Notes under the pieces: generated by a model
What the model was told of the DNA's origin: nothing
The model's database searches: none
The model's input: the letters and a program-made list of their open reading frames with translations, nothing else
Assembly: GCA_945893125.1 (NCBI GenBank)
Contig: CAMDDY010000003.1
Span: 1 to 35,159, forward strand
Source of the DNA: Bordetella parapertussis
GTDB lineage: Bacteria; Pseudomonadota; Gammaproteobacteria; Burkholderiales; SG8-41
Length of the DNA: 35,159 nt
Direction: 5' to 3'
Shown: piece by piece, positions 1,309-26,625 of the stretch
Position numbering within the stretch: position 1 is the first letter of the stretch
Layout: each line of letters begins with the position of its first letter
Translations under genes and position numbers: made by a program

Positions 1309-2454
1309 TCACACAGCCACCGGTGGCTTGAACTGCTTGGAGAGCTTTAACCCCTGCGCCTGATAATTCGAGCCGATGTTGACTCCGTACAGCCGCTGCG
1401 GTTTGTCGAGCAGGCGTTCGTAGATCAAGCGCCCGACGCCCTGCCCGTGTTCGATCAAAAACGGCACTTCGTGTGAACGCACTTCGAGCACCGCGCGGGC
1501 GCCGTTGACGTCGTTGTTGCCGTAGCCGAAACCGGGATCGAAAAACCCGGCGTAGTGGATACGAAACTCGCCCACCGACGGATCGTACGGCACCATCGAG
1601 GCGGCGAACTCTGGTGGGATGCGAATGCGCTCGCGCGACATCAGAATATAAAAATCGCCGGGGTTCAGCACCAGACTGCGATGCGCCTCGCTTTTCAACG
1701 GCTCCCAGAATTCCATCGGGTCGTAATAGTTGATGCGGGTCAGATCGATCAGCGGCGCATGTTGCTTGGCGCGATAGCCTACGATGCCGCCCCCGCCGTT
1801 GCCTGCATCCGCCTCCAGATCAACGCTGATCCACAGCCCATCGCTGATCATCGCGGCCATCGGCGCATCGTTGCCGGTGTAGACCATCGAGTCGGCGGAT
1901 GGCAGTTGATCGAGCTTTTGATTGGACGGCGGTGTGCCGCGCACGAAGCGCATTTGATTCAGCCGCGCGCCCTGTTGCGCCAGCACGCTGTAGGTGCGCG
2001 GCACGATTTCAATGTAGAGCTTGCCTTGATAGCCCTCGGGCACGCTTTCAAACTCGACGCCGCCGTCGGCGATGAGCCGTGTAAAAATATCCAGCCGTCC
2101 GGTGGAGCTTTTCGGATTGGACTTGCCGGAAATATCCGCCGGCAGCCGCAGCGTTTCCATCAGCTCGGCGATGTAGACGCAGCCTTTTTCAAACACCGTG
2201 GGCTGCGTGAGATCGATTTTGTGCATCATCATGCGCTCGATCTTGGCACTGACGGGGGTATCTTTCCCCGGCAAAAAACTCGCGCGCACGCGCCACGCGG
2301 TCGCGCCGAGACGCAGGTCCAGGCTCGCGGGCTGTATCTGCGCGTCGTCCACCTTGGCCGCGGCGCTGATCTGCCCGCTGCTCACCAGCCGCGCGATATC
2401 CTGATACGGCAGGATGCCGGCGGTGATGGGCGAGTTGCTGGTGTCGAGCTTCAT
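1309..2454 (-). CDS. dcd: 2'-deoxycytidine 5'-triphosphate deaminase (long ~380 aa form)
   Basis: ILPYQDIARLVSSGQI...DDAQIQPASLDLRLG; DISGKSNPKSSTGRLDIFTRLIADGG; second Dcd/dUTPase-like half AGFFDPGFGYG...VLEVRSHEVPFLIEHGQGVGRLIYERL. Confidence 0.85.
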   Translation of the reverse strand: MKLDTSNSPITAGILPYQDIARLVSSGQISAAAKVDDAQIQPASLDLRLGATAWRVRASFLPGKDTPVSAKIERMMMHKIDLTQPTVFEKGCVYIAELMETLRLPADISGKSNPKSSTGRLDIFTRLIADGGVEFESVPEGYQGKLYIEIVPRTYSVLAQQGARLNQMRFVRGTPPSNQKLDQLPSADSMVYTGNDAPMAAMISDGLWISVDLEADAGNGGGGIVGYRAKQHAPLIDLTRINYYDPMEFWEPLKSEAHRSLVLNPGDFYILMSRERIRIPPEFAASMVPYDPSVGEFRIHYAGFFDPGFGYGNNDVNGARAVLEVRSHEVPFLIEHGQGVGRLIYERLLDKPQRLYGVNIGSNYQAQGLKLSKQFKPPVAV

Positions 2455-19782: not shown

Positions 19783-19863
19783 CGTCGTTCCGGCGCAGAC
19801 GGGAACCCATAGGGTGTCGCAAGTGGCACTGTGTTATGGGTTCCCGCCTGCGCGGGAACGACG
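19783..19863. repeat. Paired palindromic (REP/BIME-like) element, related to 9006-9084
   Basis: cgtcgttccggcgcagacgggaacccata (19783-19811) versus tatgggttcccgcctgcgcgggaacgacg (19835-19863), 2 mismatches; spacer contains caagtggcactgtgtt, like caagtggcactgcgtt of the 9006-9084 element. Confidence 0.8.
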
Positions 19864-19900
19864 AAGGGAAAGATCGTTTGTCCTTAATGAGATTCTGCCC

Positions 19901-20860
19901 ATGATCCGTATCGCATTCGCCGTTCTACTGACTACCGCCACGCTTGCTGACGCGCAGCAGGTGCAATACCCCGCCAAAACCGTGCGCCTCGTGGTGCCGC
20001 TGGTCGCCGGCGGCCCCACCGACATCCTCGCGCGGCTGATCGCGCAGCCGCTCGGTGAAAAACTCGCCCATCAGGTCGTGGTGGACAATCGTCCCGGCGC
20101 GGGCGGCAACATCGGCGCGGAAATGGTGGCGAAGTCGCCGCCGGACGGCCACACTTTGTTCATGGGCACCTCGGGCCCGATGTCGATCAACATCAGCCTC
20201 TATCCGAAATTAGGCTATGACCCGTTGCGTGATTTCGCGCCGATTATCCTGGCGGCCTCCGCGCCATTTGCCGTGGTGGTGCATCCCGCGTTGCCCGCCG
20301 GCAACATCAAACAGTTGATTGCGCTGGTGAAAGCCAAACCGAATCAACTGAACTACGGCGCGGTGCCCGGCAACGCCGCGCATCTAGCGACGGAGTTATT
20401 CAAGAGCATGGCGGGCCTCGACATGGTGTTCGTGCCGTACAAAGGCGCCGCGCCCGCCAATACCGATCTGGTGGCGGGGCAGATCCAGTTGTCGTTTGCC
20501 TCAACGCCGGGCGCAATGCCGCTGGTGAAAGGCGGACGCCTGAAAGCGCTGGCCATTTCGAGCGCCAAGCGTATCGCCAAGCTGCCCGATCTGCCGACCA
20601 TCGCCGAATCCGGCGTGGCGGGCTACGAAGCCAGCGTGTGGTACGGCATCGTTGCGCCGGCGAAAACCGCGCCGGAAATCATCGCGCGGCTGTACAAGGA
20701 AAGTGCCGCGATACTGCAAGACCGCGTGAGCCGCGAAAAATTCGACGCCAATGATTTCGAAGCGACGGTGCTGAATCCGGAGCAGTTCGGCGCACATATA
20801 CGCAGTGAAATCGCCAAGTGGGGCAAGGTGGTTAAGGCCACCGGCGCGCGCGCGGAGTAA
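19901..20860 (+). CDS. TTT (Bug-type) substrate-binding protein 4
   Basis: MIRIAFAVLLTTATLADAQQ signal; YPAKTVRLVVPLVAGGPTDILARLIAQPLGEKLAHQVVVDNRPGAGGNIGAEMVAKSPPDGHTL; FVPYKGAAPANTDLVAGQIQL. Confidence 0.9.
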   Translation: MIRIAFAVLLTTATLADAQQVQYPAKTVRLVVPLVAGGPTDILARLIAQPLGEKLAHQVVVDNRPGAGGNIGAEMVAKSPPDGHTLFMGTSGPMSINISLYPKLGYDPLRDFAPIILAASAPFAVVVHPALPAGNIKQLIALVKAKPNQLNYGAVPGNAAHLATELFKSMAGLDMVFVPYKGAAPANTDLVAGQIQLSFASTPGAMPLVKGGRLKALAISSAKRIAKLPDLPTIAESGVAGYEASVWYGIVAPAKTAPEIIARLYKESAAILQDRVSREKFDANDFEATVLNPEQFGAHIRSEIAKWGKVVKATGARAE

Positions 20861-22151: not shown

Positions 22152-22718
22152 TTACTTGAACGCCGCGCCGTAATTGTCGCGATAGGTAAACTCGGCTATC
22201 GCCTTGCGCGTGCGCGGTTTCAAATCCTTGGCGCGCACTTCTTCGATCAAATCTTCCACGCGACCGCGATAACCCGCCGCCATCACCGCCACCGGCTTGG
22301 CATTGGCGGGAATATTAAAACCCTTGCAGATTTTGTCGTAATCAAACCCCGCCATGGCGTGAATGGTGAGGCCCATGGCGTAACCTTGCACCATCATGTT
22401 TTCCATGGCGAAGCCGACATCAAGCATGAAATTCTGCAAGCCGTTGCGTTCGGGTTGCTCTTCGGGCACGCCGATAATCACCATCTTCAGCGCGCCGGGC
22501 GGCGCCCATTGTTTGTTGCCCGCGGATAAGGCGTCGTCGAAGATGCGCTGGGCTTCCGCGCTCGACGCGATCAGCACGCGCCACGGTTGCCGGTTGTTGG
22601 ACGACGGCGCCCAGCGGAAGGCATCGAGCAGCGTTTCTATGGTTTCGGCTTCCAGCGGTTTGTTGGCGAAATGGCGGTCGCTGCGGCGGTCGCGGATGAC
22701 ATCGAGTAGTTTGGACAT
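22152..22718 (-). CDS. Nitroreductase family protein
   Basis: LLDVIRDRRSDRHFANKPLEAETIETLLDAFRWAPSSNNRQPWRVLIA; DVGFAMENMMVQGYAMGLTIHAMAGFDYDKICKGFNIP. Confidence 0.9.
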   Translation of the reverse strand: MSKLLDVIRDRRSDRHFANKPLEAETIETLLDAFRWAPSSNNRQPWRVLIASSAEAQRIFDDALSAGNKQWAPPGALKMVIIGVPEEQPERNGLQNFMLDVGFAMENMMVQGYAMGLTIHAMAGFDYDKICKGFNIPANAKPVAVMAAGYRGRVEDLIEEVRAKDLKPRTRKAIAEFTYRDNYGAAFK

Positions 22719-22859
22719 GAATTTTCCGTGGTTACAGTGAATAAATGACGCGCGGGTCTGGTTTGCGCGAAAACCGGCATTTTGGGCAATTTCCGGGGCT
22801 TGTCAATAAAATCACCGGCGTGTGTGACCGGTACTTGGGGTGGCCTATTTTAGAGGCTT

Positions 22860-22875
22860 TGTGACTTTTTTCACA
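22860..22875. promoter_or_regulatory. CRP/Vfr-family-type binding site
   Basis: TGTGA-CTTTTT-TCACA: perfect half-sites with 6-bp spacer, centre 22867.5, in a divergent intergenic region. Confidence 0.5.
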
Positions 22876-22902
22876 GACAGCACGGGCGCGCGGGCGGATA
22901 CT
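22874..22902 (+). promoter_or_regulatory. Putative sigma70-like promoter for the downstream hairpin RNA
   Basis: -35-like CAGACA (22874-22879), 17-nt spacer, -10-like GATACT (22897-22902); predicted start about 22908-22910. Confidence 0.4.
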
Positions 22903-22908
22903 TTGTTC

Positions 22909-22981
22909 TCGCAATCACTCCTCAACTCCTCCTTTGTTGATTGCCTTCACCGCGACGGGCTTCCCGCCGCGGTTTTTCTTT
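22909..22981 (+). ncRNA. Candidate small RNA (or attenuating leader) with anti-Shine-Dalgarno loop
   Basis: Perfect 7-bp stem gcaatca (22911-22917)/tgattgc (22938-22944) presenting loop ctcctcaactcctcctttgt, followed by an intrinsic terminator; no supported ORF. Confidence 0.5.
22950..22980 (+). terminator. Rho-independent terminator
   Basis: ccgcgacggg-ctt-cccgccgcgg (one internal mismatch) followed by tttttctt; T-run only on + strand. Confidence 0.75.
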
Positions 22982-23075
22982 GTGGGTCGGCATGATATGC
23001 GGACTGCCGAAAACCGGCGGCGTGAAATTGCTATGATGGCGGGCGATCCCTAGACCCCGCCAGCAGGAGCAGCCG

Positions 23076-24611
23076 ATGCCGTTTGAAGCCTTGATCCGCG
23101 ACTACGAAGAACGCACGCAACGTGCGCTGGCGATGGGCGGAGCGGAAAAACTCGCCGCGCGCAAAGCCGCCGGCGTGCTGAACGCGCGTGAACGGGTCGA
23201 TCATTTGCTGGATGCCGGCAGTTTTATCGAATCCGGTCGCTACGCCACTTCGGCGCGTGCAGAGGTGCGTCATAAAACGCCGGGTGACGGCAAGGTGGTG
23301 GGCTTTGGCCGCATCGACGGGCGCGAAGTGGGCGTGATTTCCAATGATTTCACCGTGCTCGGCGCATCCAGCGCGGTAATCAATCAGAAAAAAGTAAAAC
23401 ACGTTAAAAACGTCGCCACCAAACGCGGCTTTCCGATGGTGTTTCTGGGTGAAACCAGCGGCGCGCGCATGCCCGATCGCATGGGCGCGACGGGCCGCTC
23501 GATCGTCGGGCAGGACGGCGCGGAATATCAACGGCTGCGCAAATCGCCGTGGGCGTCGGCGCTGCTCGGCAGTTGTTTCGGCCACTCGGCGTGGTACGCG
23601 AGCCTGTCTGACTTTACCGTGATGCGCAAAGGCGCGGTGATGGCGGTGGCCAGCCATCGCGTGGCGGAAAAAGCCATCGGCCGGCCGATCACACCCGAGG
23701 AACTCGGCGGCTGGCGCATGCATACGCGCACCTCGGGGCTGGTGGATGTTGCGGTGGATACGGATGCGCAGGCGCTGGACGCCATCAAGAAATTTTTGTC
23801 GTATCTGCCGAGTCACTGTAACGAAGCGCCGCCGGTGTTGCCGGTTCCCGTGGGTTCGGACGACGCGATCCGGCAGGTGCTCGACATCCTGCCGGAAGCA
23901 CGCTCGCAGGTGTACGACGTGCGCAAAATCATCGACGCAATCGCCGATAAAGGCTCGCGCTTTGATCTGAAACCGGATTTCGGCAAATCGGTGGTCACCG
24001 CGTTGACACGCATCGACGGCCACACCACCGGCATCATCGCCAACAATCCGCTCTTTAAGGGCGGCGCGCTGGATGTCGATGCCTGCGCCAAGGTGACGAG
24101 TTTTCTGGTGTTGTGCGATTCGTTCAATATTCCCATCGTGTTTCTGGTGGATGTGCCGGGCTTTCTGATCGGGCTTGAAGGCGAACAGCGCGGCGCGCCG
24201 GGACGCATCATCAACTGGGTCAACGCGTTGTCGCTGGTCACCGTGCCGAAGATATCCATCATCCTGCGCAAGAGTTACGGCAAAGCGTATCTCAACATGG
24301 GCGGCGGCAAAAATTCCGATGAAGTCGCGTGCTGGCCCACGGCGGATCTGGGCTTTGTCGATCCATCTGTCGGTGTGAACATTTTGCATGGCCTCAAACA
24401 GGAAGATGATCCGGAACGTTTCAAACAACTCGCCGCCGAAATCGAGCAGGATAACTCGGTGTGGGGCCTCGCTGCCTTATACGAAACGCAATCAGTGATC
24501 GATCCGCGCGACACACGCGATTATCTGATCCGCACGCTGCAAGTGCATCGCATGCGGATGACGGGCGGCGTCGGCGAACATCTGATCAGCAACTGGCCGA
24601 CGACGTTTTAA
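23076..24611 (+). CDS. Acyl-CoA carboxylase carboxyltransferase (beta) subunit-like
   Basis: AARKAAGVLNARERVDHLLDAGSFIE; GEVGVISNDFTVLGASSAVINQKKVKH-type region; VFLGETSGARMPD; IANNPLFKGGALDVDACAK; FLVDVPGFLIGLEGEQRGAPGRIINW; RKSYGKAYLNMGGG. Confidence 0.9.
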   Translation: MPFEALIRDYEERTQRALAMGGAEKLAARKAAGVLNARERVDHLLDAGSFIESGRYATSARAEVRHKTPGDGKVVGFGRIDGREVGVISNDFTVLGASSAVINQKKVKHVKNVATKRGFPMVFLGETSGARMPDRMGATGRSIVGQDGAEYQRLRKSPWASALLGSCFGHSAWYASLSDFTVMRKGAVMAVASHRVAEKAIGRPITPEELGGWRMHTRTSGLVDVAVDTDAQALDAIKKFLSYLPSHCNEAPPVLPVPVGSDDAIRQVLDILPEARSQVYDVRKIIDAIADKGSRFDLKPDFGKSVVTALTRIDGHTTGIIANNPLFKGGALDVDACAKVTSFLVLCDSFNIPIVFLVDVPGFLIGLEGEQRGAPGRIINWVNALSLVTVPKISIILRKSYGKAYLNMGGGKNSDEVACWPTADLGFVDPSVGVNILHGLKQEDDPERFKQLAAEIEQDNSVWGLAALYETQSVIDPRDTRDYLIRTLQVHRMRMTGGVGEHLISNWPTTF

Positions 24612-25659: not shown

Positions 25660-26625
25660 ATGCGTATCGCATTAACACTGAGCGGCATTTTGATGCTCGC
25701 ACCCGCGCCGGCGCGCTCACAAACGGAGCCCGCGTATCCGGCAAAACCAGTGCGCATCATCGTGCCCGTTGCGCCCGGCGGCAGCACGGACATACTGTCC
25801 CGGCTGGTCGCGCAACGATTGACCGAGGTGTGGCGTACACAGGTCGTGGTCGAGAACCGGCCCGGTGGCGCCGGCGGCATTGTCGGCGTCGATTATGTGG
25901 CCAAGAGCGCACCCGACGGCTACACCCTGATCATGGGATACATCGGCACCTTCTCGTTTCTGCCGTCGGTATTTCCCAAGATGCCCTACGATCCGGTGCG
26001 GGATTTCGCGCCGCTGTCGCTGGTCGCGATGGTGCCCAACATGATGGCCATACACCCCTCGGTGCCGGCGAAAACCGTGAAGGAACTGGTGGCGCTGGCC
26101 CGCAGCCGCCCCGGCCAACTCAACTACGGCTCATCCGGCAACGGCAGCAACTCGCATGTGTCGGTGGAGTATTTCAAGCAATTGACCGGAACGGACATCC
26201 AGCAGATTCCCTACAAAGGCGCCGGTTTGACGATGATTGATCTGTTGGGCGGACACATCACGCTTACCGTGACCGGGGTGCCGCCGATCATCCCGCATGT
26301 GCGCAGCAACCGGCTGCGCGCGCTGGGTGTCGCCACCGACAAGCGGCTCGACATACTGCCCAATGTACCGACGATCGCGGAAGCCGGCGTGCCGGGTTAT
26401 GAAATTACCCAATGGTACGGCCTGCTCGCGCCGGTGGGCACACCGCGTGACATCGTGCGAAAGCTGAATAGCGAAATCGTGCGCTATCTGCAATTGCCGG
26501 ACACTGCGGCCAGGATGTCCAGCGGAGGCGCCATTCCGACCGGCAACACGCCGGAGCAATTTCACGAGCTGATCAAAGCAGAAATCCCGCGTTGGGCCAA
26601 GGTGCTTAAGCAGGCTGGGTTGTAG
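25660..26625 (+). CDS. TTT (Bug-type) substrate-binding protein 5
   Basis: YPAKPVRIIVPVAPGGSTDILSRLVAQRLTEVWRTQVVVENRPGGAGGIVGVDYVAKSAPDGYTL; QIPYKGAGLTMIDLLGGHITL. Confidence 0.9.
   Translation: MRIALTLSGILMLAPAPARSQTEPAYPAKPVRIIVPVAPGGSTDILSRLVAQRLTEVWRTQVVVENRPGGAGGIVGVDYVAKSAPDGYTLIMGYIGTFSFLPSVFPKMPYDPVRDFAPLSLVAMVPNMMAIHPSVPAKTVKELVALARSRPGQLNYGSSGNGSNSHVSVEYFKQLTGTDIQQIPYKGAGLTMIDLLGGHITLTVTGVPPIIPHVRSNRLRALGVATDKRLDILPNVPTIAEAGVPGYEITQWYGLLAPVGTPRDIVRKLNSEIVRYLQLPDTAARMSSGGAIPTGNTPEQFHELIKAEIPRWAKVLKQAGL

Follow-up and report, generated by a model that had tools for sequence, protein, structure and literature searches.

The window analyzed here, a 35,159-nucleotide stretch of DNA, comes from an uncultured freshwater-type betaproteobacterium whose own assembly is 84% complete (5.0 Mb). 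A small RNA (sRNA) locus lies in it between two genes, with the following features:

22152..22718, minus strand: divergent nitroreductase gene (Pfam PF00881)
22860..22875, no strand assigned: CRP-type palindrome TGTGACTTTTTTCACA; the predicted transcription start near 22909 lies 41.5 bp downstream of its centre
22874-22879: -35 region CAGACA, poor and overlapping the palindrome
22897..22902, plus strand: -10 element GATACT, conserved in orthologues as [GC]A[TAC]ACT
22909..22981, plus strand: sRNA gene of about 73 nt with predicted ends, from an orthologue-built covariance model and covariation
22911..22944, plus strand: hairpin 1, a 7-bp stem (GCAATCA/TGATTGC) with a 20-nt CU-rich loop
22926..22934, plus strand: anti-Shine-Dalgarno (anti-SD) core CTCCTCCTT, invariant in 12/12 copies
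22949..22981, plus strand: intrinsic terminator, a GC stem-loop and T-tract
23076..24611, plus strand: downstream acyl-CoA carboxylase carboxyltransferase subunit gene (Pfam PF01039)

A first-pass annotation had described much of this arrangement, and its reading of the letters was accurate. The palindrome TGTGA-CTTTTT-TCACA is present at 22860-22875, and the -35-like CAGACA (22874-22879) and -10-like GATACT (22897-22902) are separated by a 17-nt spacer. The perfect stem GCAATCA (22911-22917)/TGATTGC (22938-22944) encloses the 20-nt loop, the loop carries the anti-SD-matching stretch CCTCCTTT at 22928-22935, and a GC stem (22949-22973) runs into the T-run TTTTTCTTT, which ends at 22981. A tandem ACTCCTC was also described; both copies exist (22917-22923 and 22925-22931), but the first is particular to the window's genome and is not conserved. 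The -35/-10 pair was not listed by a sigma-70 consensus scan because each element matches the consensus at only 4/6 positions. The palindrome followed 35-60 nt later by CTCCTCC occurs once in the window and in none of 100 dinucleotide shuffles, and only two sites in the whole 5.0-Mb genome carry the perfect palindrome. The window RNA folds with a z-score of -3.4 relative to dinucleotide shuffles. The observed arrangement is far beyond chance.

What most strongly shows the element to be real is that 12 congeneric genomes conserve it. A BLAST search recovered the unit from seven congeners, and a covariance model built from these and the window detects the sRNA in 12/14 genomes of the genus at 62-97 bits, while anything else in the taxonomic family scores about 35 bits or less. 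Over the alignment of 12 sequences, standard pairs fill 96% of pairing cells (98.8% over the seven modelled pairs of hairpin 1 and 94.7% in the terminator stem), and compensatory changes occur in four pairs, two in hairpin 1 and two in the terminator stem. None of the 500 shuffles and none of the slid controls reaches the covariation score. Identity per column ranges from 0.78 to 0.92 over the sRNA (0.88-0.92 in the terminator) and from 0.78 to 0.90 over the palindrome. It is 0.2-0.5 just upstream of the unit and, declining past the terminator, 0.2-0.6 from 22990 on. Conservation is thus confined to the palindrome, the -10 element and the RNA, and collapses on both flanks. The loop core CUCCUCCUU (22926-22934) is invariant in 12/12 copies, and in the predicted fold of every orthologue CUCCUCCU has a mean unpaired probability of 0.97-1.0. 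Covariation in both stems and conservation of the loop among relatives, which the first-pass annotation had proposed looking for, are therefore both found in the 12 congeneric copies, and its proposal of a discrete sRNA with its own promoter and terminator is supported, at a length of about 73 nt, by the genus-wide conservation and the covarying stems. On comparative sequence evidence, this is a real and uncatalogued sRNA gene, conserved across the genus, and represents a new family.

Its place between two genes would fit a leader or an operator. The nitroreductase gene adjoins the sRNA in all 12 sRNA-bearing genomes of the genus, and the palindrome shares bases with a weak promoter-like pair on the minus strand. 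However, the nitroreductase gene has a better promoter-like pair of its own nearer its start (TTGACA-16-CAAAAT at 22806-22779). In the G018 genome the palindrome and sRNA are kept with no nitroreductase gene close by, and in the G005 genome the nitroreductase is present and both palindrome and sRNA are missing. Palindrome and sRNA are therefore retained or lost jointly, irrespective of the nitroreductase, which argues that the palindrome goes with the sRNA and makes an operator of the nitroreductase unlikely. On the other side, the carboxylase gene lies downstream in just one other congener and in the diverged copy on L049, and where a different gene could be recognized there, as in several congeners, it encodes a TctC/Bug receptor and lies on the opposite strand. 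Because the downstream gene differs between genomes, and with the RNA closed by a terminator, a leader of the carboxylase was rejected in favor of a free-standing sRNA gene. We consider both readings, a leader or attenuator acting on the downstream gene and a palindrome serving as operator for the divergent nitroreductase, extremely improbable.

Beyond the genus, a diverged copy in another genus of the taxonomic family (G018, L049) retains CGTGACATAGTTCACA, GATACT, UCCUCCU and the terminator. In 300 genomes of the order, the palindrome-plus-loop combination was confined to this genus apart from one chance-like match. The GTDB species collection gave eight congeneric matches and three in unrelated taxa, which is about the estimated chance level. 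Named records among the matches are metagenome-assembled betaproteobacteria. Two metagenome-assembled records (L067 and L071) bear the sRNA and nitroreductase of this genus under the title "Bordetella parapertussis", which looks like a misassignment.

The sequence TGTGA-N6-TCACA is the CRP consensus, and a palindrome centred at -41.5 together with a poor -35 element is the pattern of a class II activator-dependent promoter, as established for CRP. None of the 12 congeneric copies departs from the palindrome by more than one mismatch. Its centre lies 29.5 bp from the first base of the -10 hexamer in each of them, also in the diverged G018 copy and in G002, where the palindrome reads TGTGAAACAGTTCACA. 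The class II geometry proposed in the first-pass annotation, a CRP-consensus palindrome at -41.5, is thus fixed throughout. A single CRP-family orthologue, sharing 72-100% identity with the query, is encoded in 11 of the 14 congeners; it has a cNMP-binding domain and a helix-turn-helix (HTH), with SREMVSR as the recognition helix. Among solved structures it is closest to Vfr, whose helix reads SREMVGR, and it carries the RSA signature of the cyclic-nucleotide pocket. Comparison among the congeners therefore identifies an RNA unit with its structure, an invariant exposed loop and a fixed promoter geometry, with a matching CRP in most of the genomes.

The CRP orthologue is missing in the window's own assembly (84% complete), in G009 (62%) and in G010 (97%), and no CRP/FNR-family HTH at all was found in the window's own assembly. 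The near-complete G010 lacks both CRP and sRNA, and G005 retains CRP though the sRNA is lost. Across the CRP/FNR family, G010 has no PF13545 HTH match; other near-complete congeners have 2-10. Over 0.82 Mb of the window's own genome the palindrome shows no excess, so that a CRP regulon does not stand out, and a rough inspection around the crp genes of the congeners turned up no site with one mismatch or fewer. The CRP claim has two main weaknesses: CRP is missing from the own assembly, and palindromes are not in excess in these 0.82 Mb. Both could indicate that the sRNA is real but a different factor binds the palindrome, or that the promoter does not depend on cAMP, and the right half, TTCACAG, is indeed more strictly conserved than the left. 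Against this, the palindrome is the CRP consensus at exact class II spacing, and 11 congeners encode the CRP/Vfr recognition helix. We regard a factor other than CRP, or a cAMP-independent promoter, as unlikely. CRP control, as first proposed, is therefore strengthened by the class II site and the matching CRP of 11 congeners and weakened by the absence of any CRP/FNR protein from the 84%-complete assembly; judged from these sequences, it is plausible but unproven.

Rfam families group RNAs by covariance models with a gathering score for membership. The statement that this RNA is not a named family was formally right, as no Rfam family reaches its gathering score. The nearest families (RF02278, NmsRb, ncS54 and anti-hemB) are mostly CU-rich betaproteobacterial sRNAs. 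The best bit score for the window RNA is with RF02877 NmsRb (24.1 bits, E 0.51, gathering score 52), followed by RF02278 (21.8 bits, and up to 28 in congeners, against 50) and RF02871 ncS54 (21.3 bits, E 0.068, against 43). RF02837 anti-hemB matches two congeners only (31.6 and 30.3 bits, against 49.5). RF02344 ar14 does not match the window RNA at E up to 10 and reaches 22.5-29.1 bits in congeners (against 58.8), matches to suhB/mmgR stay below gathering scores, and CyaR has no Rfam match to the window RNA at E up to 10. On these scores, membership in each of these families and homology with CyaR were rejected.

RF02278 deserves closer attention. It comprises the double-hairpin RNAs ncS03, ncS05, ncS27 and ncS62 of Burkholderia cenocepacia, one of which is called bdhR1 (PMC5688073). 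The window RNA has the same layout of two hairpins, a CU-rich anti-SD loop and a terminator, and an S17-like inner hairpin lies only 1.3 kcal/mol above its optimum fold. The covariance model of this sRNA also finds RF02278-like RNAs, with E of about 1e-5 to 6e-4 in a 19-kb search. Together with the sub-threshold RF02278 scores, this suggests that the sRNA could be a plain double-hairpin/S17 member that arose from a duplicate of the genome's RF02278-like gene and merely has another promoter. However, all of these scores are below 60% of the 50-bit gathering score, the genome retains a distinct RF02278-like RNA that is itself sub-threshold (30.4 bits), and the likeness may stem from the anti-SD core and terminator alone. 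Such a duplicate origin is possible but, on balance, doubtful.

The retained RNA is a second anti-SD sRNA, of the RF02278/S17 type, at G000:C50:4998-5064 on the minus strand (L025, 1501-1567). Its 27-mer core TCCTCCAAAACCTCCTCCTTTGGTGGA (G000:C50:5034-5060) recurs without a mismatch in genomes from two families of the order. No such palindrome was seen upstream of this RNA in the own genome. Tandem pairs of RF02278-like sRNAs, in an arrangement like that of NmsRA/NmsRB, occur in L050 (G010; 1501-1566 and 1857-1922, minus strand) and L053 (G075; 1223-1288 and 1501-1567, plus strand).

The double-hairpin RNAs consist almost only of two hairpins, the second a terminator, with CU-rich unpaired stretches complementary to the ribosome-binding sites that they are predicted to cover, and overexpression of ncS27 slows growth (PMC5688073). 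The window sRNA shares this plan but differs in its first stem and in its conserved CRP-type class II promoter. In Bordetella pertussis, S17 is a processed RNA of about 67 nt with anti-SD sites and a terminator; it is related to the RF02278 group, is widespread in Betaproteobacteria and represses mRNAs by pairing near the start (PMC11722255). Unlike the window sRNA, S17S results from RNase E processing of a 190-nt precursor with an activator-independent promoter (PMC11722255). S17, compared here by description, has a very conserved 27-nt core, whereas the window sRNA has a different core and its own promoter just upstream. In Neisseria, NmsRA/NmsRB and NgncR_162/163 carry anti-SD CU-rich stretches in a hairpin loop and act in global metabolic repression (PMC5362039, PMC9973317), the NmsRs repressing TCA-cycle mRNAs (PMC5362039). 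The NmsRA/NmsRB genes differ from the window sRNA in being tandem, with stringent-response-linked expression and no link to a CRP-type site.

By mechanism, the nearest case is CyaR (RyeE) of enterobacteria, which is CRP-activated and whose seed pairs with the Shine-Dalgarno sequence of ompX and blocks ribosome binding (PMC11795201). The geometry and loop of the window sRNA would fit this mode of action. CyaR differs in structure and lineage, and it is an analogue rather than a homologue. The first-pass annotation had pointed to the alphaproteobacterial cuckoo/CcsR RNAs, which like ar14 have a CUCCUCC-type loop; the nearest relatives are instead betaproteobacterial (RF02278 double-hairpin RNAs, S17 and NmsR), and CyaR, the functional analogue, had been missed. 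No CRP-controlled double-hairpin RNA appeared in the literature found, a search that stopped short of supplements, most subscription papers and the "common upstream motif" figure of PMC5688073. The parts of this locus are of known kinds and so is the mechanism; their combination is new.

Taken as a whole, the locus probably encodes a free-standing, CRP-family-activated, trans-acting sRNA of about 73 nt that would occlude Shine-Dalgarno sequences through its exposed loop. A CRP-family dimer (cAMP-CRP or a close equivalent) would bind the palindrome at -41.5 and act as a class II activator of RNA polymerase at a promoter whose -10 element is fair and whose -35 element is poor. The transcript would fold into a stem with an exposed CU-rich loop, followed by the intrinsic terminator. 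The core of this loop would then pair with the Shine-Dalgarno sequences of selected mRNAs and block ribosome binding, probably with Hfq. Expression, CRP binding, the role of Hfq and translational repression are what we infer; among the traits of an Hfq-type trans-acting sRNA, those seen are the terminator with its T-tract and the exposed seed. By analogy with the double-hairpin RNAs, S17, NmsR and CyaR, the targets probably belong to uptake and carbon metabolism.

Targets were surveyed in one genome, using 715 crude gene calls over 0.82 Mb. Loop pairing averaged -10.3 kcal/mol at translation starts and -8.4 kcal/mol in internal coding sequence, a difference expected of any anti-SD sequence. 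Among the 715 gene calls no functional class exceeded the result for shuffled loops, and no specific target emerged. TctC/Bug receptor genes, which made up 10 of the best 30 predictions, were dropped as targets, as the top 50 held 15 of them compared to 9-22 with shuffled loops. The adjacent nitroreductase and carboxylase genes are not predicted targets (ranks 685 and 252 of 715). Because an anti-SD core does not predict one outstanding target, the missing target list says little. It does leave room for an RNA that does not repress mRNAs and instead serves, say, as a sponge for a protein or titrates 30S subunits by generic mimicry of the anti-SD, as no specific mRNAs are singled out in this genome and the loop copies the generic anti-SD sequence. 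However, the characterized relatives of this layout work at ribosome-binding sites (PMC11722255, PMC5362039), and 30S titration would require an SD-like rather than an anti-SD sequence. We consider such an action very unlikely.

The same 0.82 Mb (L158-L197) shows two further features. TctC/Bug solute receptors are hugely expanded, with 150 of the 715 gene calls matching at E < 1e-10; within the window, such genes lie at 19814-20860 and 25660-26625. An interspersed repeat, GGTGAAACCCATCACA / TGTGATGGGTTTCACC, often occurs as close inverted pairs and looks like a REP element; sites are found in L191 (823/854 and 17372/17414), L197 (4050/4089) and L170 (2162/2260), and also in L162, L172 and L176.

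With this locus comes an sRNA that has sharp boundaries, is supported by covariation and falls outside every Rfam family. The genome also has an RF02278-like RNA with a similar loop, so the pair allows asking how near-identical anti-SD loops divide their targets. If CRP control is true, betaproteobacteria would have reached a CyaR-like link between a CRP-family regulator and the blocking of ribosome-binding sites. Tentatively, and at somewhat less than even chance, we suggest that in this genus a CRP-family regulator drives a dedicated anti-SD sRNA, a convergent counterpart of CyaR wired apart from the older RF02278/S17-like RNA, and that nutrient status may in this way directly control a wide-ranging post-transcriptional restraint of mRNAs whose Shine-Dalgarno sequences are strong.
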